A stretch of 64,000 nucleotides of DNA, taken from assembly GCA_907163375.1 (NCBI GenBank), contig CAJQUW010000492.1, positions 62,001 through 126,000 on the forward strand. The letters are read 5' to 3'. The notes beneath the pieces are model-generated. The model was not told the origin of the DNA. It did no database searches and saw only the letters and a program-made list of their open reading frames with translations. Positions 3,823 through 56,578 of this stretch are shown here, piece by piece (positions within the stretch are counted from its first letter, which is position 1; every line of letters starts with the position of its first letter). A program made the translations under genes and the position numbers. Origin of the DNA: Prostheceraeus crozeri. Its lineage: Eukaryota > Platyhelminthes > Polycladida > Euryleptidae.

Positions 3823-4970
3823 CACAGAATTAGATTGTTTAACCGTGTCACTTTGCTAGATATGGAAACTGATTCAAACAGATGGCACATGCAGAAACTT
3901 ACTAGGTGGGCAAAAAGACATTTTTAATACATTGGAGAGCAAAATGCTCCAATCGCCACGATTCCTTCACATTCGAAGAATTCAGATAACTGCGCAAAAG
4001 TTATAATCTTCAGTGTTAAAAATGGCCAGACCATTACCTTAGTCATACGAGCATATACGTATGTCTTTACGCTTAGCCAATTTACTTAGACTTTCGTGTA
4101 TTCTTTTATTTTTCTGTTCATTACAAACTTTTTTACCATCTTTAATAAAATTAGTGACTAAGTTCTGTATTTCTTGTTTGATAGTTGGGGTCAAATCAAA
4201 TTGATCATTATTTTTCATGTTTACAGCTATTGATTTTTCCACTTCGTATTTTAGTTTATCATTATCTAGATTCTTAGGGATAATGCTATGTTTCAAACCA
4301 TACCTTAAGAGCTCGTTCTTCTCTAAGGTTAGTTGATAATTACTAAGGTTGACTATGGCATCCGGTACACTCGTTCGATTCGAGAACCAAAGTCTTTTAA
4401 GTTTATCATTCTGCCTAACTTCAACAGTTTTGATTTTATTTTTTACAGATTTTACTACAAGTAGTTTCAGCAGAACAAAACGAAACCAAGGAAGAAAACT
4501 ATCTATCCTCTGTGTCAAAGACATCAAACTTTTATCATTATTTTTGATCTGCTTCTCAACGTTCTTCAAATGTGTAGTTAACACTATCTTATTACAATCA
4601 TCACCAATCTCCCTCAAAACTTTAACTTTAGGAACTTTTATAGTCAAAAATTTCGGGACTACATTCAGCAAAAGTTTTCTCGATAATGGTGGGCCTTTCG
4701 ATCATTTTAAAAAAGTTAGCAGGTGCACGAAAAAACGTTCACAGACTTCTCTGTTGAGCTTGACATCGACCGTGTCTCTTTGCGGGGTGATCCGGTTGAT
4801 GACAGTCACTAAAACTTCGCACAATTTGGCGTGTTTAATGTTGAACTGGCTTCTAATTGTTCGATTGCTATGGTATTTAGTCAGGAGATTGTGCCATTTC
4901 ATTAGCGTTACATGTTCCAATGCTTCCATTCAAGTCAAACAGAAAAAGAGACGACCTTTCTAATTCTGTG
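3823..4970 (+). mobile_element. MITE-1 copy 1, split by a PLE insertion
   Basis: Non-autonomous DNA transposon of a family seen several times in this window (34456-34976, 43783-44305, a longer form at 21915-22521, its reverse at 17855-18455, and a reversed fragment at 43029-43372). The ends are inverted: it starts CACAGAATTAGA and ends CTAATTCTGTG. It is flanked by an 8-bp duplication, GTTGCAAT at 3815-3822 and GTTGTAAT at 4971-4978 (7/8 match). Without the nested PLE fragment at 4003-4667 its length is near the roughly 520 bp of intact copies. An 8-bp duplication is usual for hAT and P superfamilies; which one supplied the transposase is not shown. Confidence 0.85.
4003..4667 (-). pseudogene. 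Penelope-like element fragment, N-terminal part
   Basis: A minus-strand open frame (about 4671 to 4039) has the character of the N-terminal region of PLE polyproteins: a lysine-rich helical stretch, then IVNLSNYQLTLEKNELLRYG, then the approach to the reverse transcriptase, RKDIRICSYD. The frame meets a TAA where PLEs normally read KGNG. After it, GNGLAIFNTEDY follows in frame, so the TAA is a point mutation. The fragment stops just inside the reverse transcriptase, so it is 3'-truncated. It is flanked by GCAAAAGTT on both sides (3994-4002 and 4668-4676), a 9-bp target duplication inside MITE-1. Confidence 0.75.
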
Positions 4971-5213
4971 GTTGTAATGATGGAAAATTTAACAACATTG
5001 ATTTCCACATTGGCTTCACATTCTGGGTTGCGCAAGCATCAGCTAATAGATTGCGCGCTAATTTGACTATTAGTTCGCATGTTATTACTTTGACTGGTAC
5101 GAAGCCTAGAATTCCTGGGAAGTTCAGTGATGGACATGGGGGATTTTTCAGGCCAGGCCAGCCCCAATTGATGCATGCAGTGGCCAAGCAAATTGAAAAA
5201 TAGACGATAAGAC

Positions 5214-6030
5214 CATAGAGTAGGGATATATAGGTACAGTGTCGACTCAAAAAAGTGTCTGTATACAGTGAAAATTTTTGTATCACAGGATTCAGTTTTT
5301 TGCGGACATTACGCTCCCATGGTCCAAAAAATTATTTGAGCACTTTTAAAAAAAGTCAAAATTTGCCAATTTATATACTACCGAGATGACTCTCCTATAT
5401 AAATAGTATGAAACAAGTTGGATTCAAACGGAATGAATATTTGCTAATAAGTATCCTAACTAAGCGGAAATTAAGCTGATTATCAAGGGAATTTCATGAA
5501 TTGTATTATAATGAATGTCTTCATGAAAAGGTCGCGAAATTATTCGTGCTTTCTTGGCTGAAGTTTCAAGTTTTTAGTTCAATTTTCATCGACATGATTT
5601 TATGATTCACTAAATTTATGTTTCTTTTCTTGAGTCTGAATAGTGATGAGGACCCATTTACATCTTTCAAAGTTAAATGAAGTCATTGTCTTTGATTTTG
5701 TGATTTTGCTCTGCCAGTGGTACGTTGCCTGTGATATGATCACGCTTAAGAAAATACTCTTGAGATTGAGCATGAAAGTACTAGTAGGAACCCATCGAAT
5801 TGTTAATTTAACAAACATATTAAATCTCCAAGCCTGTCATGAGAATCTGTGAAATACCATTATTCCTTCTGCATTACAATCATGACTATCATAAAATATG
5901 CATATCTCCCATTTGGTGACAATACTATACTGTATCTCCCTTGAGTTCATTTAATAAAATCAAAAGTGTATACACATTGGGGATTTAATAAAAGCGGAGT
6001 TACCACTCTACCTAACATACTTACTCTATG
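5214..6030 (+). mobile_element. MITE-2 copy A
   Basis: Second non-autonomous family, about 820 bp. The termini are inverted: CATAGAGTAGGGATATA at the left and TACTTACTCTATG at the right, with similarity continuing for about 28 bp (…AGGTAGAGTG in other copies). It is flanked by GATAAGAC (5206-5213) and GATGAGAC (6031-6038), an 8-bp duplication with one mismatch. Other copies lie at 15500-16244, 29893-30348, 39601-40526 (reverse) and 44841-45658 (reverse). No coding capacity; the open frames in it are shadows. Confidence 0.85.
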
Positions 6031-6038
6031 GATGAGAC

Positions 6039-6676
6039 GTTCACTGCATCTAGTTGACTTCTACCGATCTCACATCTTTGGTGAACTGTAGGTTTAACCT
6101 TAACCCTCTTCGTCGTGGAAGGAGGGGGGGCTCGGTTTTTTCAGTCTCACGCCGGTACTAATAATTGCTTGAAGGTCTTCTTCAGTGACTTTTAATAACT
6201 TTGTGTTGGCTTTCTCTGAGTGGTAGCTGCTTCTTTGTAGACCAAATATTTTAGTCACAGGAGACACATGAAAAAAATTTACAACCAAATTTTTTCGACA
6301 TTTTGGATTTTTTCGTCTATTGACAAACATTTTGAGTCCTAAGTTGATTTGTAACTTCTGTAGTTTGCCCGCTTAGGAAAAAAATGTCGAGTAATTATGC
6401 GAATTGATGCTCAGATACTTTTTACCTTGTTATGATGACTAATATTATGCATGTTCTATACATACTACTTATTAATGCGAAATTAAAAAAAAGATTGCTT
6501 GAATTTCAAAATTCCATTCATGGTAACAAGAACCGGCCGCTTGAATTGCAAAATGGACAGTATCAGCAGAAAGAGCGTGTTTTAAAGGGTTATACTGAAA
6601 TTTTCATGAAATGATGTCGAATATTTTAGATACAATTACGAAATTTAAAATAATGAATGTTCGAATTTTAATAGGC
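6039..6676. other. Gene-free stretch upstream of histone H4
   Basis: No other histone gene is visible next to H4, unlike the clustered arrangement common in animals. A 76-codon minus-strand frame at 6100-6330 resembles nothing I know. Confidence 0.5.
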
Positions 6677-45658: not shown

Positions 45659-45849
45659 CTCAAACTTAAGCGTCGTCAATCAATGGAAATCGTCTGACCT
45701 AGCCGTTTCACTCCCTCTGCAAATGTGTATCCATTAACTGACTTGTGCCCGCTCGCTGATTCATGTCTTTCAGTGGTGTCCAGGAGGCCTCGATCTCTGT
45801 GGTCTCAATTTACAAGCACGGCACAGGAGACTCTTTGGTCAGTGTTTGA

Positions 45850-46436
45850 TGGACGTTCCCATCTAATGAGGGCGTGGTGCTTGACATTCTTCCTGGTCAA
45901 TCTGAAACCGGTGAAAGAATGCAGGCACTCAATGAAAGTGTGATTGACCTGCTGAAGCAAAACCGAGGTTGGGGAACCATTGGGAAGCGTAAAATCAAGC
46001 GTGGAAGGAAGATCCATCCAGACAGGGAACTATCGCTATGATGAAGCAGGAGTGACATCATCCGGAGCAGCAAGAGATCAACATTCAAGATAAGTCATCA
46101 TATGATGATGGTGATGATGAGTCATCATATGATGATGGTGATGATGAGTCATCATATGATGATGGTGATGATGAGTCATCATATGATGATGGTGATGATG
46201 AGTCATCATATGATGATGGTGATGATGAGTCATCATATGATGATGGTGATGATGAGTCATCATATGATGATGGTGATGATGAGTCATCATATGATGATGG
46301 TGATGATGAGTCATCATATGCTTATTGCTTGATTTTATGGAGGGGCTACAAAGGCCCGAATTGTGATCTGGGCTTCGAATGCTTGAAAAAACTCCGCGGT
46401 GGACGCTACTGTATTCTTTTTCGTATGTTAAAATAA
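45850..46436 (+). pseudogene. Unrecognised coding remnant with acidic repeat and Cys tail
   Basis: Two adjoining open frames. The first (45850-46038) reads VVLDILPGQSETGERMQALN, then a basic patch GTIGKRKIKRGRKI, and ends at tandem TGA codons. The second, in another frame (46056-46436), reads HPEQQEINIQDK, eight SSYDDGDDE units, and a tail with four cysteines spaced x11, x5 and x9, including GYKGPNCDLGFEC and GGRYC, stopping at TAA 46434-46436. AATAAA overlaps the stop region (46431-46436). I recognise no family. The reverse copy lies in 54722-56566, with about 41 repeat units and a one-base shift in the tail. It may be a captured host gene, an old retrogene or part of an element. Confidence 0.45.
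46095..46310 (+). repeat. 27-bp minisatellite, 8 units
   Basis: Eight exact-length units of TCATCATATGATGATGGT plus GATGATGAG, then a partial unit. The unit length is a multiple of three, so frames stay open on both strands. The sense frame reads SSYDDGDDE. The matching array in the other arm has about 41 units. Confidence 0.95.
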
Positions 46437-46687
46437 ATTATAGTGCTGCTGTTAGGGATTGTTGGTATTCTAATCATGTCCTTTTCATTGAATATCGGAT
46501 GCCAGATCTCTGTTGAAGATATAAAAGAGCATTTTTGAAAATCTTCCTCTTACTCTTGAAATAACGGAAGATGAATAAATGACGAAACATGTTGAATTAT
46601 ATATCTAGTCATCACTCAAACTCACAACCTATACTTTTCTCAGACTAATTGATAAATGAATTGCAAGTTTATTCACAACGTTTCTGC

Positions 46688-46835
46688 TTTAACTGCGTTC
46701 GTAATCGGATCTTTGTAATTGAAATGATTTTGGATTTTGTTGGTTCTAAAAATTGGGACTATTTTGGCTTTTTCAGACAACTTTTCGTTAATATCATGAA
46801 TACGACACATCAACATTTTATTAGTGGACTCAATG
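46688..46835 (-). pseudogene. Penelope-like element, left arm, downstream part
   Basis: The minus strand encodes ESTNKMLMCRIHDINEKLSE and on to TNAVK, the linker between reverse transcriptase and endonuclease. It continues the frame interrupted by the LINE at 46836-51316. At 46687/46688 it joins the unrecognised minisatellite segment exactly as in the right arm. Confidence 0.85.
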
Positions 46836-47462
46836 ATATTATGTCATCAATGTCATATTATATATCAACTGTGGTCGCTGCTGGTCGTGTGTCTCTCTTG
46901 TCCTGACACAGTGTGTAGATTTACTGAAATTGTGCTGGATTGTTCGAGGTTATTTGCGTTAAAATTTGGATCTGTGGATTTGTCGTCTTGCTCCCCATCT
47001 TACTAAGTGATTCGTTTACATCTTCTACTGATATCTTCGTTGGAATTCGCTGCTGTTTTTTGGCTTTTTGGTTACACGTTCCTGAATTTCACTCATTTCA
47101 TCGCAGTTGTAGTGGTTTGGAAGCACTTGATTTGGATCTCCGCAGTGTCCATCGTGTCGCTATAAATAGCTCAGTCTGTCCTATTCATCGCGTCGCCATA
47201 ATCGCCAAGCCAAGCTCTTTCCGTTATTGTCATCGATTGATATCTGAAGTGTCTCACTTTCTACCATTGTCTGTTTGCGATCGAAGACTGTTTGTGGCGG
47301 CAGGTTTTGTCTGCTGTACATTGAATCAGCTGTTAAGAATCAGCTCTGGTGACACTATCTTCGCCAAACTTTCACAGATTATCGATTTTCTGTCACGTGA
47401 CTATACACGTTTGACCTTTCAAGATTGATCTTCTGAAAGATTGGACTAACAACAATAACGCT

Positions 47463-48190
47463 ATGCCGAAGACATGATCTGGTTCCCAAACATCTCTTCA
47501 GTTGGACGAAGTAGAACAATTGATTCTTCGCTCGGAAGCACGAATCATTGCAAGTTTCGACTCTCTTGCTGAACGTATATCTATGATAGATGCACGTCTG
47601 AATAACATACAATCTGAACCATATCTACTTCTATGATCTGAACAGGTCAGATTAGACATAGATTTCACAACAGTAAAAGAAATCATTACGACTCAACAAA
47701 CTCAGATCGAAAAGATTGAATCCGAGAAGCGAAAATACAATCTGATATTTAATGGTGTTTCAGAATCAGACTCATGTGAATTCGATGATGATGTTTTCAC
47801 AACAGACATTGAAAAATTGACATGTATATGCAAAACTATTGACGAGGGAAACCTGAGTTCATTTCCTCGCATTATCGGCTTGGACAAACTAGAAACGGTC
47901 ATTCACGACCTATAAAGGTTACGTTTGCCGATGGTTTCGTCAGAAAGAATATGCTGTACGGTCAGAGGGTTATCCGAGATGATGCTTCTTTCAAACACGC
48001 TTTCGGAACTATTTACATTAATAAGGATTTAACTTTCCTTATGCGTAAAGAAAAGAAACGCCTGAAAGATAAAATGAAGGCGATCAAGCAGGATTCTTTG
48101 CCTACTGATGAGATCCGCATTAGAAATGGCAGATTGTTTAAGAACAGAGCCGTCATTGATGAGATTCAAGTGGTCAATCAGTTGTTCTGA
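47463..48190 (+). pseudogene. LINE B ORF1
   Basis: ATG at 47463 opens MPKT, then TGA, then SGSQTSLQLDEVEQ. A coiled-coil-like helix follows (LILRSEARIIASFDSLAER), a second TGA, and an RNA-binding domain (YNLIFNGVSESDS). A frameshift near 47885 lets RNGHSRPIKVTFADGF continue to a basic end, DEIRIRNGRLFKNRAV, stopping at 48188-48190. Both TGA codons fit CGA-to-TGA changes. ORF1 proteins coat element RNA. Confidence 0.75.
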
Positions 48191-48388
48191 CAACTTACAT
48201 CAAACTGCTGTTTGCTTTGTTATTTGGCCATTGTCCAAAGATTCTACCCTGCCTCTGCTAACTTTTTGTCTCCGTTGTATTCAACCCTTTCGCATTCCTG
48301 TCCCACTACCATTTGTATTGAGTCTTCTAATTCAGATTCTGAGTATTCCACGTCTAAAAATAACCTGACTAACTTTACCTGCTCGTCC

Positions 48389-51187
48389 ATGAAACTTTAC
48401 TTATTCAATGCCAGGTCTATCAATAACAAATTACCCGATCTTCTTGCATTATTACGTTACGACCGCTATGACTTCGTACTGATAACTGAAACATGGTTGC
48501 GTTCTTCAATATCTGATGGCCTGTTAACCGGGAGTGAGCCTTACTTAGTCTATCGATATGATCGTCCTGATGGATATGGTGGAGTTGCCATTATATATCG
48601 AAATAAATTCTGTATTTCTGGCGTTGACTTTACGTGTCTGCCTGGTGTTGACATAGCTTGCATTGATATAAAGTTTATGAAGCATACTACATATCGACTT
48701 ATTGTGATATACAATCCACCAAATGCAACAGCCGAAAGGGTATCACTGTTAAATGAAGTATTGAAACGATTGATGGATTGTGACAATCCTATTTTCATAT
48801 GCGGAGATCTAAATTTTCCCAAGATCTGTTGGTCTGTTCCTAATTCATTCGGTGATGTTCCTTATGACATGTTCCTACAATCTCTCGTCGAAAATGACTT
48901 ACATCAACAGGCTCTTTACCCCACCAGAAATGATGCTATACTTGATCTGGTTTTAACAAACAGACCTGACCTTTTGCTCTCTTGTGATGTCGTTGAGCCC
49001 TTTAACAGCAACTGTGATCATTCTGCAGTATCATTTTCAATCTTTATGCTAACAACACATGATACTATGCATACTTGTAGACCTAATTCAGATCCTAAAC
49101 TTAATTACAGGGACGCTGACTATGTCCTTTTTCGGCATCATATTGCTTCGTATGATTGGTCAACTTTGCTAACTGAATACTGTGATATAGAGGACATGTG
49201 GACACAGTTTAAAACCGTGATTGATGAGGCTAAGGACCTATACATCCCATCTTTCATCCCTTACCGTAATTCACCAAAAATCCCAAAGTTCTACGTAAAC
49301 TTCTTTCAAAAAAGCGAAAATTATACAAAAAATACTTTGAAATATCGACAAGTAGCAAAGGAGTATGATGAGGCTGTTCGGATGGTGGCAAGCCAAAATG
49401 AAGCAAAAGTGATTTCAACAGGCAACGTGAAACAAATATTCTCATATATCAAATCAAAGAACTCAGTCAACAATGATTTCACACACATAGCAATGTCAGA
49501 TGGTTCACTTTGTTCTTCACCATCACAAACTGCTGAGATTTTCAGTAACTATTTTTCTTCCAGCTTCACTGTAGACGACAACGTTCTTCCAATCGTATCT
49601 GCTCGTAATATCCATGATCAATGTTTAAGGACAGTATCATTCACTGCTGAAAAAGTATTCAAGGCTATCAAACAATTACCTGCTAAACTTTCCCCGACGC
49701 CTGATGATATTCCCGCTATGTTATTGCGCCAGATTGCTGATGTCATATGTGTACCTTTATCTATCTTGTTTGAAGTCTCCATGCATCAGGGTGTACTACC
49801 AAAACAATGGAAATGCTCTTACGTACGACCAACCTTTAAAAGCAAAGGCAACGCTACACCTCCCTTAAATTATCGGCCTATTTTATTGACTTCCAACTCT
49901 TGCAAGGTCATGGAGAGAATAATTGTTGAAGATATCACCAACTACTTGACAATGCACAATTTGATATCTGCTAAACAACACGCTTTCCTAAGTAGACGCT
50001 CCACAACAACTCAACTACTCGATACCATTTACGATTGGTCTGATGCCCGTTGGCAAGGTAATCATGTTAATTGTGTTTACCTGGATATTTCGAAGGCCTT
50101 CGATCGAATATCTCACAGAAAACTATTATTCAAATTTCAAAAGTATGGCATTTATGAAGAAGTATACAATTGCATAAAGTCATTTATTACAGGTCGAACA
50201 CAGATGGTGAAAGTTAATTGCGCATATTCAAAAGAGGTTCCTGTGATAAGCGGCATTCCTCAAGGTACAGTACTTGGTCCGATTTTCTTTGTCCTCTACC
50301 TAAATGACATTGTCGACTGCCTGGAAGATGACGTTGAGATACAGATATTTGCAGACGATGTGACGCTGTATGGTCATTGTACCAAAAATGATATGTCGTT
50401 CTCATTGCAAGCAACGTTATGTAGTCTGGAAAAGTGGTTCAATTCATGGCAACTAATTATTTCTCCTGAAAAATCTCAGTGTTTATCTGTTGGTCTACGA
50501 AATAAGACGAGCTTTGATTACAGAATGTTTGGTCGAGTTATTCCATCTTCTGACTCCACCAATGACCTTGGTATACACCTGACATCCGACTTGAAAATGA
50601 GTGATCATTGTAGCAAGATTTCCGACAAGGCATACTCCAGATCAGTTTGTCTACTGAAATCCTTTGTTACATCGAATCTTTCAATGATGGTACAAGCATA
50701 TAAATCTTTAGTTCGGTCTCTGCTTGAATATGCTAGTCCAGTATTTTCACCAGTCTTACAAAATGATATTATGAAGATTGAGCGAGTTCAGAGATTTTTC
50801 AGCCGATCTGTCTGTAGACGATTGAATATTTCTTACACTTCACACTCTGACCGCCTTCGTTTACTCGATTTGTACTAACTAGAGCACAGGCGAATAATTT
50901 TGGACTTATGTTTTATGTACAAGCTCTACCACAACCTCGTCGATCTCGATTTTGATAAATACTTTGTACGAATCTCAAATCCATATCTCTCAAGATCGCA
51001 AGCACGGAATCCATGTCAAGTGAGATGCAAAATCGATGGACATGATAAGTCTTCACGCAACATATTCTTCTTACGTATTTGTCCTATTTGGAATGGTCTA
51101 CCTGATGACACTGTCCATGCGACCTCTATCAACGCATTTAAAGAACGACTGCACCAAGCAAATCTGACTCAATATTGTGAATTCTAA
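48389..51187 (+). pseudogene. LINE B ORF2 (endonuclease-reverse transcriptase)
   Basis: Open upstream of the likely ATG at 48389 (MKLYLFNARSINNKLPDL) and uninterrupted to a TAA at 50876-50878. The C-terminal part resumes in frame (LEHRRIILDLCFMYKLYHN) to the true stop at 51187. Endonuclease motifs: ITETWL, YDRPDGYGGVAI, ICGDLNFPKICW, CDHSAV. Reverse transcriptase motifs: LNYRPILLTSNS, VYLDISKAFDRISH, GIPQGTVLGP and the catalytic FADDVTLY. About 930 residues in all, normal for CR1-like LINEs. A single premature stop separates this copy from an intact ORF2, so it is young. Confidence 0.9.
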
Positions 51188-51320
51188 TGTTTTCCTACGC
51201 AGAACGTAAGTGCCTTTTGGCTATTACTGCGTTTTCCGCAAAAATCATTCATGTAAATCATGTCAAAATTATCCATGTATCATTATATTTTGTCGGAATA
51301 AATTATTATTATTATTAATG

Positions 51321-52528
51321 TAATGAACAGACCAATACACAACCTTTTCAGGTTCAGCTTTTTCTTCTTTTGCTCTGCTTACTCTCTTTTCCATATTGTT
51401 CTTCACTCGCAAAACTGTGCGTTCATCGTAGCCATTATTTTTGAAAATATCAATTAACTGATCAACCGCTTTTTGGTAATTACAACGGTTGGAGCAAATT
51501 TTAAAGGTACGAAAAAACAAAGATCTCATAGCTGCCATTTCGTACGAGATCGGCGCATAAGAGGTTGAAGGAATATAGATTCCAGTGTTTCCATCTTTCA
51601 AATGATGCGAGATATCAAAGACACCAGTACTTATACTCACAGTGGTATCCAGAAAATTCATTGTACCACTGGAACTACATTCCATTGTGAAATGCAGTTC
51701 ATCAACCATAGAATTCAGAGCTTCTAAGAACCGCTTGCCATCCGCCTCTGTCTTGAAGATGGCAAAGCAGTCGTCCACGTACCTGCAGTATAACTCAGGC
51801 AGTTGAATATCTAGATCATCAAAGCGACTCTCAACAAGATCCATGGCAAAGGCTGCCATAGTAGGGGCTAATTTTGAGGCCATCGGCATGCCATCAATTT
51901 GATAATAATACTTGCTGTTAAAGGAGAACAATATGTTAGAGCAAGCAATTTCTAGCAAAAGCTTTAGAGCATTTTTCGTTAAAGGAAAATCTTCAAAGGT
52001 GATCATGGATAATACATGCTCAATCGTTTTTTCACCGGAATGGAAGTAAAGAGGCTGCTCGTCACATCATAGCTAAAGAGCTTATAGTGCTGAAGATCAG
52101 GGATGTGAGAATTATTAAGCAGCTCAACAAAGTGAAAAGTATCTCCTAAATTGAATTTTTTAGGAATGTGAGGCTTCAGGATGTCGTCAAGCCAGCCAGA
52201 TAAATTAGACAAGTACGAGTTGCGCATATTCAGAATGGGCCCAACAGGAGGGTCTGACTTTTGTGCACTTTTGGCAGGCCGTATAAACGAGCCGGCTGAG
52301 AGCTACTCGCTTTGATTTGATTCAATATTGCATCATTGATCATTTGCTTTGATTTCAAAGATTGTAATTTGCGATTGAATCGCTCCTCTTCCAAAATAGA
52401 AGGATCTTTTTTGGATCTCTTATAAAAGTATAATGTTTGAATTTCTCACTGTCATTTATCAGATCATTCAATTTCTCATCACAATTTTTCCGATCTAAAA
52501 TCACGATGCCATTGCCTTTATCAAATCT
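51321..52528 (-). pseudogene. Penelope-like element, left arm, reverse transcriptase
   Basis: The minus strand runs from the KGNGIVIL motif (52528) through RLYGLPKVHK, YDVTSSLFTSIPV, GMPMASKLAPTMAAF and the catalytic YVDDCFAIF to FLDTTVSIS and beyond. It is broken by the LINE at 51321. Frames change near 52240 and 52003, as in the right arm, so those lesions are older than the duplication. The element is 5'-truncated exactly at the arm boundary. Confidence 0.85.
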
Positions 52529-52541
52529 TTACTTGTGTTTG

Positions 52542-52583
52542 CCGCTGAAGATGGAATGATTCTACATTCCGAAACATGTTCGG
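52542..52583 (+). ncRNA. Hammerhead ribozyme-like motif in PLE 5' region
   Basis: Order on the plus strand: CCG (52542-52544), core CTGAAGA (52545-52551, fitting CUGANGA), a 5-bp stem GGAAT/ATTCC, core GAAAC (52571-52575), ATGTT and CGG (52581-52583), which can pair with the first CCG as helix I. ACATGT could form a minimal helix III, best as a dimer. One extra U between the first core and the stem may weaken activity. Hammerheads of this short-helix-III type are known in PLEs. Confidence 0.5.
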
Positions 52584-54721
52584 TTGAGAGAAAACGTAGC
52601 TTTTCCTTCAAAAGATATTATGACGATGGGTCAATTATGTTTGAAATCTATCAAGTCAACCCTTGATCCACAATTCCAAGTGCAACTGAAAGGAATTATC
52701 AAACTCGGAGATAAATGTGCGCGAGCAAATTTGCGAATAAAGTTCCTCAAAGACTGTCAAAGGAGTGATCCCGAAATTCCTGAGGTTCAAGGTGCCCGCA
52801 CCGTTGAGATCATCCAAACAATTGATCAGAAAGACTCTTACCAAGGAGCTGAGAAAAGAAGTTGGTAAGGCCATTAAGGACTCGCAACTCAAAAATGATA
52901 AACTCACTGAGAAAATGTCTCTGTACTCTGACAGAGATCAATGTCTAATACGTTCGATCATGGATCATACAGTAGCTATGCTAAAAGATCGTATCTCCAA
53001 TATTCATTCTAAAAAAATTAACCAGCTTAGTTAATCAACAAAATCCGGTGAAGTTCCGGACGCAAAAACAAAATACTTTCATCAATCTGTCCTCTTATAG
53101 CTTTTCTGAAACTGAGAAAGACGTTCTCGCTCTTGGTATGTCTATGTCCATATCGCATCGCAAATTGAGCATGAGCATTCAAATAGCCGAAGCAGAATCA
53201 GTCATTCACAGACTCCGATCCTTTGGAGTTATAGATGATGACCTCATCTGCGGCTTCCGCAAAATTTTCAAAAGCTATTTTTCCAAGCAGAAATTCAGCA
53301 GTAAATGGTCTCGCCATTTTAAAACTCTGCGCAATTGTGCAAAAACCAAAGACATCGAGATATCACGATTTGATAAAGGCAATGGCATCGTGATTTTAGA
53401 TCGGAAAAATTGTGATGAGAAATTGAATGATCTGATAAATGACAGTGAGAAATTCAAACATTATACTTTTATAAGAGATCCAAAAAAGATCCTTCTATTT
53501 TGGAAGAGGAGCGATTCAATCGCAAATTACAATCTTTGAAATCAAAGCAAATGATCAATGATGCAATATTGAATCAAATCAAAGCGAGTAGCTCTCAGCC
53601 GGCTCGTTTATACGGCCTGCCAAAAGTGCACAAAAGTCAGACCCTCCTGTTGGGCCCATTCTGAATATGCGCAACTCGTACTTGTCTAATTTATCTGGCT
53701 GGCTTGACGACATCCTGAAGCCTCACATTCCTAAAAAATTCAATTTAGGAGATACTTTTCACTTTGTTGAGCTGCTTAATAATTCTCACATCCCTGATCT
53801 TCAGCACTATAAGCTCTTTAGCTATGATGTGACGAGCAGCCTCTTTACTTCCATTCCGGTGAAAAAACGATTGAGCATGTATTATCCATGATCACCTTTG
53901 AAGATTTTCCTTTAACGAAAAATGCTCTAAAGCTTTTGCTAGAAATTGCTTGCTCTAACATATTGTTCTCCTTTAACAGCAAGTATTATTATCAAATTGA
54001 TGGCATGCCGATGGCCTCAAAATTAGCCCCTACTATGGCAGCCTTTGCCATGGATCTTGTTGAGAGTCGCTTTGATGATCTAGATATTCAACTGCCTGAG
54101 TTATACTGCAGGTACGTGGACGACTGCTTTGCCATCTTCAAGACAGAGGCGGATGGCAAGCGGTTCTTAGAAGCTCTGAATTCTATGGTTGATGAACTGC
54201 ATTTCACAATGGAATGTAGTTCCAGTGGTACAATGAATTTTCTGGATACCACTGTGAGTATAAGTACTGGTGTCTTTGATATCTCGCATCATTTGAAAGA
54301 TGGAAACACTGGAATCTATATTCCTTCAACCTCTTATGCGCCGATCTCGTACGAAATGGCAGCTATGAGATCTTTGTTTTTTCGTGCCTTTAAAATTTGC
54401 TCCAACCGTTGTAATTACCAAAAAGCGGTTGATCAGTTAATTGATATTTTCAAAAATAATGGCTACGATGAACGCACAGTTTTGCGAGTGAAGAACAATA
54501 TGGAAAAGAGAGTAAGCAGAGCAAAAGAAGAAAAAGCTGAACCTGAAAAGGTTGTGTATTGGTCTGTTCATTACATTGAGTCCACTAATAAAATGTTGAT
54601 GTGTCGTATTCATGATATTAACGAAAAGTTGTCTGAAAAAGCCAAAATAGTCCCAATTTTTAGAACCAACAAAATCCAAAATCATTTCAATTACAAAGAT
54701 CCGATTACGAACGCAGTTAAA
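52584..54721 (+). pseudogene. Penelope-like element, right copy, N-terminus and reverse transcriptase
   Basis: Starts just after the hammerhead-like motif. The N-terminal region (52620 on, frames shifting near 52780 and 53030) contains MIPKFLRFKVPAPL and INLSSYSFSETEKDVLALG. The reverse transcriptase follows: ISRFDKGNGIVILD, ARLYGLPKVHKS, YDVTSSLFTSIP, GMPMASKLAPTM, YCRYVDDCFAIF. About four frameshifts are visible (near 53490, 53640 and 53885 among others). PLE proteins prime at nicks or telomere-like ends. Here the frame ends TNAVKAETL because the endonuclease part is displaced downstream to 56579. Confidence 0.85.
54597..54721 (+). repeat. 125-bp direct duplication, first copy
   Basis: Identical or nearly so to 56579-56703. 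Begins TGATGTGTCGTATTCATGAT and ends CGCAGTTAAA. It encodes MCRIHDINEKL to TNAVK in both places. It flanks the 54722-56578 segment, so the PLE can be read through only if one copy and the segment are removed. Confidence 0.9.
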
Positions 54722-56578
54722 GCAGAAACGTTGTGAATAAACTTGCAATTCATTTATCAATTAGTCTGAGAAAAGTATAGGTTGTGAGTTTGAGTGATGA
54801 CTAGATATATAATTCAACATGTTTCGTCATTTATTCATCTTCCGTTATTTCAAGAGTAAGAGGAAGATTTTCAAAAATGCTCTTTTATATCTTCAACAGA
54901 GATCTGGCATCCGTTATTCAATGAAAAGGACATGATAAGAATACCAACAATCCCTAACAGCAGCACTATAATTTATTTTAACATACGAAAAAGAATACAT
55001 TAGCGTCCACCGCAGAGTTTTTTTCAAGCATTCGAAGCCCAGATCACAATTCGGGCCTTTGTAGCCCCTCCATAAAATCAAGCAATAAGCATATGATGAC
55101 TCAGCATCACCATCATCATATGATGACTCATCATCACCATCATCATATGATGACTCATCATCACCATCATCATATGATGACTCATCATCACCATCATCTT
55201 ATGATGACTCATCATCACCATCATCTTATGATGACTCATCATCACCATCATCTTATGATGACTCATCATCACCATCATCATATGATGATTCATCATCACC
55301 ATCATCATATGATGACTCATCATCACCATCATCATATGATGACTCATCATCACCATCATCTTATGATGACTCATCATCACCATCATCATATGATGACTCA
55401 TCATCACCATCATCATATGATGACTCATCATCACCATCATCATATGATGACTCATCATCACCATCATCATATGATGACTCATCATCACCATCATCATATG
55501 ATGACTCATCATCACCATCATCATATGATGACTCATCATCACCATCATCATATGATGACTCATCATCACCATCATCATATGATGACTCATCATCACCATC
55601 ATCATATGATGACTCATCATCACCATCATCATATGATGACTCATCATCACCATCATCTTATGATGACTCATCATCACCATCATCATATGATGACTCATCA
55701 TCACCATCATCATATGATGACTCATCATCACCATCATCATATGATGACTCATCATCACCATCATCATATGATGACTCATCATCACCATCATCTTATGATG
55801 ACTCATCATCACCATCATCTTATGATGACTCATCATCACCATCATCATATGATGACTCATCATCACCATCATCATATGATGACTCATCATCACCATCATC
55901 TTATGATGACTCATCATCACCATCATCATACGATGACTCATCATCACCATCATCTTATGATGACTCATCATCACCATCATCATATGATGACTCATCATCA
56001 CCATCATCATATGATGACTCATCATCACCATCATCATATGATGACTCATCATCACCATCATCTTATGATGACTCATCATCACCATCATCTTATGATGACT
56101 CATCATCACCATCATCATATGATGACTCATCATCACCATCATCTTATGATGACTCATCATCACCATCATCATATGATGACTCATCATCACCATCATCATA
56201 TGATGACTTATCTTGAATGTTGATCTCTTGCTGCTCCGGATGATGTCACTCCTGCTTCATCATAGCGATAGTTCCCTGTCTGGATGGATCTTCCTTCCAC
56301 GCTTGATTTTACGCTTCCCAATGGTTCCCCAACCTCGGTTTTGCTTCAGCAGGTCAATCACACTTTCATTGAGTGCCTGCATTCTTTCACCGGTTTCAGA
56401 TTGACCAGGAAGAATGTCAAGCACCACGCCCTCATTAGATGGGAACGTCCATCAAACACTGACCAAAGAGTCTCCTGTGCCGTGCTTGTAAATTGAGACC
56501 ACAGAGATCAAGGCCTCCTGGACACCACAGAAAGACATGGATCAGCGAGCGGGCACAAGTCAGTTAGTAGATGGTTAG
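54722..56578 (-). other. Segment interrupting the right-hand PLE
   Basis: About 1.86 kb between the reverse transcriptase and endonuclease parts, with the 125-bp duplication on both sides. Its coding sense is on the minus strand: it is the reverse of 45735-46687 and carries the acidic (SSYDDGDDE)n frame and the cysteine tail. A relic similar to the PLE hammerhead region (GGAAGATG…GACGAAACATGTTG, minus strand) lies near 54821-54855, which hints that the segment has a retroelement end of its own. Confidence 0.6.
55090..56206. repeat. 27-bp minisatellite, about 41 units
   Basis: Same unit as at 46095-46310 in reverse orientation. At least a quarter of units carry an A-to-T variant (CATCATCTT instead of CATCATCAT), scattered among standard units, plus single units with other changes. 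Scattering of variants points to unequal exchange within the array. Poly-His open frames on the plus strand are a by-product. Confidence 0.95.

Follow-up and report, generated by a model that had tools for sequence, protein, structure and literature searches.

A Penelope-like inverted repeat with minisatellite arrays of unequal length in Prostheceraeus crozeri, probably formed by repair copying from the inverted partner

Architecture of the locus

A stretch of 64,000 nucleotides from the genome of the flatworm Prostheceraeus crozeri (assembly GCA_907163375.1, contig CAJQUW010000492.1, positions 62,001 to 126,000; hereafter the window, its positions prefixed with w) contains an inverted repeat built around two pieces of a Penelope-like element (PLE), each adjoined by a segment, here called X, that carries an array of a 27-bp unit. 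When the window was compared with itself by BLAST, three inverted pairs were obtained, w45729-46320/w56572-55981, w46089-46835/w55321-54574 and w51317-52527/w54577-53367, the last of them 1,211 bp long and 99.9% identical. Together with a pairwise alignment, these pairs defined a left arm composed of w45729-46835 and w51317-52527 and a right arm spanning w53367-56572 (Table 1). Relatives of the parts were sought in the assembly, which comprises 2.05 Gb in 14,165 contigs; a mitochondrial COX1 translated with code 5 points to an invertebrate.

Table 1. Features of the inverted repeat and its flanks, in window coordinates
Feature	Position	Strand	Evidence or remark
Dispersed repeat, left flank of the structure	w44841..45660	.	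Five copies in the window, including this one
Repeat Y, apparently resident left flank; last 68 bp (w45729-45796) duplicated in the right arm	w45662..45796	+	
Left arm, outer part: end of Y, X with array, about 162 bp of PLE	w45729..46835	+	BLAST, alignment
X, old dispersed repeat fragment, about 67-85% identity to other places	w45798..46626	+	Assembly matches
27-bp array, left: 8 identical units (type A) plus a partial unit	w46089..46320	+	
Left-arm PLE piece reaching the LINE	w46674..46835	-	Alignment
LINE: endonuclease and RT, 895-aa stop-free frame	w46836..51316	+	Profile matches; empty site in the right arm
Left arm, inner part: inverted PLE RT fragment	w51317..52527	-	BLAST, alignment, profile match
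Spacer: 5' part of the right PLE copy	w52528..53366	+	Comparison with other PLE copies
Right-arm PLE RT region, frame broken, breaks identical to the left arm	w53367..54733	+	
125-bp PLE segment, first copy, left of the right X	w54597..54721	+	Exact duplicate of w56579-56703
X duplicate in the right arm, with the long array	w54783..56503	-	BLAST, alignment
27-bp array, right: 41 units plus a partial unit (26 A, 12 C, one each of D, E and F)	w55090..56212	-	
Apparently copied end of repeat Y	w56505..56572	-	
6-bp filler at the right junction	w56573..56578	+	Five letters repeat a stretch 10 bp upstream (by eye)
Remainder of the right PLE: second 125-bp copy, then GIY-YIG region; 3' end missing	w56579..56847	+	
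5' retroelement fragment adjoining the truncated PLE	w56848..57598	+	Retrotrans_gag, E 0.059, below cut-off
LINE, long interspersed nuclear element; RT, reverse transcriptase.

An original prediction made from the letters of the window had claimed a near-perfect inverted repeat with 8 versus 41 units, and a PLE RT with an adjoining segment in both arms; both claims were borne out by BLAST, alignment and Tandem Repeats Finder. The predicted extent, 45735..56566, was correct in location, the aligned ends lying 6 bp further out. The terms palindrome and likely fragile site were not borne out. A palindrome has little or no spacer, and here 839 bp (w52528-53366) separate the arms and a 4.48-kb LINE (w46836-51316) splits one of them, so that the structure is an inverted repeat with a spacer and the idea of fragility found no support.

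The right arm is uninterrupted at the point corresponding to the LINE, that is, it holds the empty site. The LINE ends in an ATT-rich tail and is bounded by a target duplication of about 4 bp (by eye). Its family, represented by w48191-50000, gave 19 other matches in the assembly, those longer than 1.8 kb being 96-98% identical, and is evidently young.

The arms were aligned with the array excluded, a check that the original prediction had proposed. This yielded 5 mismatches in 360 bp, 4 mismatches and one 1-bp gap in 515/516 bp, and 1 mismatch in 1,211 bp. Thus, 1 difference in 1,211 positions lies on the inner side of the LINE point versus 10 in 875 on the outer side (Fisher p 0.0011). Arms of kilobase length at 99% identity, taken as sequences, are not a product of chance.

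The Penelope-like element core

The right PLE copy starts at w52528, continues through the RT and closes at w56847 with a GIY-YIG region, directly followed by a retroelement that matches gag weakly. Its left counterpart lies in inverted orientation and lacks both ends. The RVT_1 profile scored 27.8 and 28.0 bits in the window pieces, just under its cut-off of 29.6, and exceeded it in an uninterrupted relative, locus L032 (46.2 bits). One 758-aa frame of this relative holds the RT followed by an endonuclease-like tail, an order read from motifs that presumably mark these parts. The GIY-YIG profile was weak in the window PLE (16.0 bits versus a cut-off of 22.6) and was not among the matches of L032 at E values up to 0.1; no solved structure was matched at E 0.01.

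In 9 of the 12 other PLE loci compared (L010, L013, L014, L015, L016, L025, L026, L027 and L047), the head segment that begins at w52528 recurs about 230 bp after the point matching w56847, forming a pseudo-LTR (long terminal repeat) or partial tandem. It does not recur in L012, L017 and L018; the window copy, which has lost its 3' end, does not show it either. Such recurrence of the element start after the 3' end is described for PLEs in PMC11167929, where a hammerhead ribozyme in the pseudo-LTR is given as a feature of some PLEs and not an obligate one. None of the 49 cmscan matches in w44500-58000 (E up to 5) belonged to the hammerhead families, the window copy being without a 3' pseudo-LTR. 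The assignment to PLEs is therefore based on the RT, the order of the parts and the pseudo-LTR arrangement. The motif GAAGATG...GAAACATG at the PLE head (w52540-52580) has a similar counterpart at the inner end of X (w46570-46605).

Comparison with two other copies (L032 and L048) indicated that both arms share one history. The right arm departs from these copies at 49 columns, 7 of which are alignment edges, and the left arm carries the right-arm state in all 42 non-edge columns (46 of 49 when the edges are counted). Among these 42 columns are two small deletions, common to both arms, that change the frame. At 30 of 1,355 PLE positions, the base was absent from up to 13 other copies, with at least 5 copies aligned per position. 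By their shared sequence states, both arms derive from one PLE copy that was already damaged.

The arrangement of the pair is common within the family. Among 37 places surveyed, the window included (taken from 40 scored candidates out of 807), 11 had opposite-strand PLE pieces within 6 kb, the window again included, and in all 11 the order was minus then plus, i.e., head-to-head. At least 250 bp stood on each strand in 5 of these 11 places, and some pieces were only 39-120 bp long. Head-to-head is the most often observed inverted arrangement of Penelope elements according to PMC3846280; the core of the structure is accordingly a broken head-to-head pair of a kind already published.

As an alternative, the whole inverted structure, X included, could stem from one PLE insertion through self-priming, template jumps and capture of flanking DNA, with the array changing later. 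The recurrence of head-to-head pieces in the assembly fits such an origin, and PMC3846280 reports for rotifer Penelope elements both head-to-head copies and an RT/endonuclease insert partly found inverted upstream. Retrotransposition would also account for the equal outer ends and the near-identical inner arms without conversion. Nevertheless, the frame-changing deletions present in both arms would make the source a dead copy, and, with the evidence from repeat Y and from the interrupted right PLE given below, this origin was considered unlikely.

A second PLE inverted repeat was observed at L047 (G000:C7170:471500-478000), with arms at 45-2037 and 4271-6266. These arms extend over 2 kb at 98.9% identity, the PLE part showing 0 differences in 743 positions. 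The right PLE copy of this locus holds a 1.8-kb insert with inverted-repeat-like ends, about 88 bp of one insert end being also present in the left arm. This shared insert end suggests that the L047 pair may likewise have been created or rewritten at the DNA level.

Segment X and repeat Y

Matches to X were found on at least 38 other contigs (40 of 69 candidates scored), and 14 of these loci were fetched for comparison. They were about 67-85% identical to the window X and contained about one and a half 27-bp units at most (by eye). None of the 14 had a PLE match among its best 14 matches to w44001-58500, and none of the 12 other PLE loci carried an insert at the position that X occupies in the right PLE. 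The possibility that X is part of the PLE, such as its 3' end or pseudo-LTR, was rejected on these two grounds. X was likewise rejected as a coding segment, since the two window frames scanned had no Pfam match and the relative L037 had no long frame (by eye). In the X copies L037, L039, L040 and L045, and partly in L033, an extra stretch of about 430-500 bp separates the parts matching w46387 and w46436; this stretch is absent from the window X.

For the dispersed repeat of the left flank, w45300-45800 was matched at 40 or more other places of the assembly, with 40 of 5,725 candidates scored. Repeat Y borders X on the outer side. It crossed the left arm end (w45729-45735) in all 9 of the loci lying elsewhere, every one of 11 candidates having been scored; three of these nine aligned with gaps of 1-2 bp a few bases from the arm end. 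Because Y runs through the left arm end elsewhere, the left copy of X and Y was taken as resident and the right as the duplicate, and only the right arm end would be a new junction. The same continuity counts against an origin by retrotransposition, for which the left outer end should have been a true end.

The right-hand junction

On the right side, Y ends at w56572 and is followed by the 6 bp of filler and then by PLE sequence. The right-arm X is flanked by duplicates of a 125-bp PLE segment, w54597-54721 being exactly equal to w56579-56703. At three of three positions, both duplicates share a private base that none of the 11-13 other PLE copies aligned in this stretch possesses, which indicates that one PLE copy was interrupted and not that two were joined. 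Hence, a partial tandem of two different PLE copies was rejected as an explanation of the right side. A common interruption of this kind is also at odds with a single retrotransposition event.

The exact duplication could in principle be a long target-site duplication. X would then have inserted into the right PLE, and the left arm would have been copied from the right and rejoined through homology in Y. This reverse direction of copying needs a separate source for the right-hand piece of Y and a matching Y on the left by luck, and the 14 fetched X loci do not join X to a PLE in the matches inspected. It was judged very improbable.

The retroelement on the right flank was tried as the original target and rejected, since in L029 and L030 the 3 kb preceding the start of the element had no window match.

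The duplicated PLE stretch begins at w54597, only 20 bp from the LINE insertion site, which in right-arm PLE coordinates is w54574-54577. For the 1.37-kb PLE part, the chance of a break within 20 bp on either side of this site is about 3%, by an arithmetic that is post hoc. The LINE endonuclease may have cut the identical sequence in both arms, one end then being trimmed, so that LINE entry may have come before or after the copying.

The 27-bp arrays

Tandem Repeats Finder reported, at period 27, 8.6 copies with 99% matches on the left and 41.6 copies with 97% on the right. Units of about 10-60 bp and variation in length characterize minisatellites, and the arrays agree with both, the variation being between arms and not between individuals. 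A search of the assembly for two consecutive units, allowing up to 3 mismatches, returned at least 47 matches, all 47 of them inside these two arrays, and the reversed pattern returned 0. Unit A holds a perfect 12-bp palindrome, CATCATATGATG, which is imperfect or absent in most of the 14 X relatives (by eye). Copies of TGAGTCA, a candidate motif that matches the AP-1/bZIP core, number 8 in the left array stretch and 40 in the right one. RNA families in w44500-58000 were limited in cmscan to matches in the arrays, far below the cut-offs.

The distribution of unit types bears on how the arrays came to differ. One deletion in the right unit map leaves at most 5 units free of C, D or E, and two deletions leave up to 15. 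The left array, with its eight type A units, was thus excluded as a single-deletion collapse of the present right array, and for this reason the unit maps are more simply read as growth on the right, starting from a short all-A array. The number of variant types on the right, four, falls within what the outer-arm divergence would lead one to expect (about six changes, from about 0.6% per arm over 1.1 kb, our own estimate). Clustering of type C units in the right array was not above that of shuffles. The arms had been predicted to give a before-and-after view of array growth or collapse; this holds in so far as the left segment looks resident and the right a duplicate and a one-step collapse of the right array is excluded, growth on the right being favoured.

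Minisatellite instability has been linked to hairpins and recombination. Two units of the array were predicted to fold at -11.8 and -11.9 kcal/mol, versus shuffle means of -7.5 and -6.5 (z -2.8 and -3.4), and a two-unit hairpin may contribute to the instability of the array.

A probable repair-copying origin

The arm content, the empty LINE site, the 125-bp duplication with its private bases and the continuity of Y on the left are read directly from the DNA; from them, a break, pairing, synthesis, conversion and a direction of array change can be inferred. The right PLE was probably broken and then repaired with the inverted left arm as template, the copying extending over X, the array and 68 bp of flank before the ends were joined.

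The starting point would have been a broken PLE lying head-to-head with a truncated inverted copy, the latter adjoined by resident X with a small 27-bp array and then by Y. A double-strand break in the right PLE, near w54577-54597, would have left a left-hand end able to pair with the inverted left PLE copy. Synthesis would have proceeded to PLE position w54733, crossed from the PLE into X, copied X together with the array and stopped 68 bp inside Y. The extended end would then have detached from its template and been linked by end joining to the opposite end of the break, with 6 bp of filler between them. Such a course would produce the 125-bp PLE duplication around the right X with no need for a staggered cut. 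The LINE would have entered the left arm before or after the copying. The inner arms would have been kept near-identical, probably by conversion, as the parts beyond the LINE drifted; the LINE is a plausible barrier shielding the outer arms from conversion. The self-pairing units may have slipped during or after copying, leaving arrays of different length, most simply through growth on the right.

Several observations weigh against repair copying. The outer arm, X included, is more diverged than the inner arm, opposite to what a late copying of X would leave, so that later homogenisation of the inner arms or shielding of the outer ones is needed. When the differences were polarised by eye, about 4 were derived on the left, 3 on the right and 3 undecided, which argues for drift on both sides and not for error-prone copying of the right. 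The approximately 45 bp between X and the PLE (w46627-46671) have no match elsewhere, the unit map allows a two-step collapse of a long left array, and a single 27-bp unit folds no better than its shuffles (z -0.70). The outer PLE piece of 162 bp, with zero differences between the arms, is neutral in this respect. Finally, the structure is known from one assembly.

This last point leads to the possibility of an assembly artefact, in which two haplotypes with 8 and 41 units, or misjoined reads, simulate the two arms. Assemblies are prone to error where long inverted arms are nearly identical, and the structure comes from the assembly alone. However, the arms differ in their flanks, and the LINE, with its empty site, occurs in one arm only. 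Derived bases on each arm (by eye) and a junction of repair type also speak against an artefact, as does the second PLE inverted repeat at L047, though from the same assembly. An artefact was regarded as decidedly improbable.

A stronger version of repair copying is that a single break repair copied the array and enlarged it about fivefold in the same event, the break perhaps having been made by the LINE endonuclease. This remains a tentative and rather doubtful proposal. If true, template and product arrays, each with its unit map, would still face each other at this locus.

Comparison with known systems

The closest parallels are found in the rotifer Adineta vaga. Its endonuclease-containing Penelope elements share with the window the head-to-head arrangement and the capture of flanking DNA, and in the element Pen2a an RT/endonuclease insert is partly found inverted upstream (PMC3846280). 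Unlike the window, the inserts of these elements are asparagine-rich coding stretches, and retrotransposition is proposed for them in the same paper. The insert of the window is a resident repeat with a minisatellite and no recognised protein domain, the element is broken, and the signs are those of copying at the DNA level. Penelope inserts that reappear inverted upstream, so far ascribed to retrotransposition, could thus sometimes stem from DNA repair between arms.

Templated insertion at double-strand breaks proceeds by one-ended invasion, synthesis and end joining. Such insertions are similar to the window in the copying of nearby sequence, in the filler at one junction and in the homology at the other. 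The window differs from them in the size of the insertion (about 1.9 kb), in the use of an inverted repeat partner as template, in the tandem array carried along and in being a natural genomic record. The locus seems to preserve the template of an ectopic repair next to its product, together with an array of changed length. A related paper on templated insertions is PMC11724301.

As for minisatellite instability, self-pairing units, changes of length and unit variants spread within the array are features of such systems, and all of them are found here. In contrast to known minisatellites, a single locus here holds a pair of sister arrays in opposite orientation, so that their unit maps are directly comparable. 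A related paper on minisatellites is PMC12708500. The study of this locus in relatives could tell size jumps of tandem arrays during repair synthesis from later drift. The individual pieces are of known kinds; it is their combination that is instructive.

Additional observations

The retroelement fragment on the right flank (w56848-57598) showed about 95% identity to the longer copies at L029 and L030. Additionally, the comparison of the window with itself revealed two further repeat pairs in w59980-60825 and w61582-63296, one direct (79% identity) and one inverted (92%).

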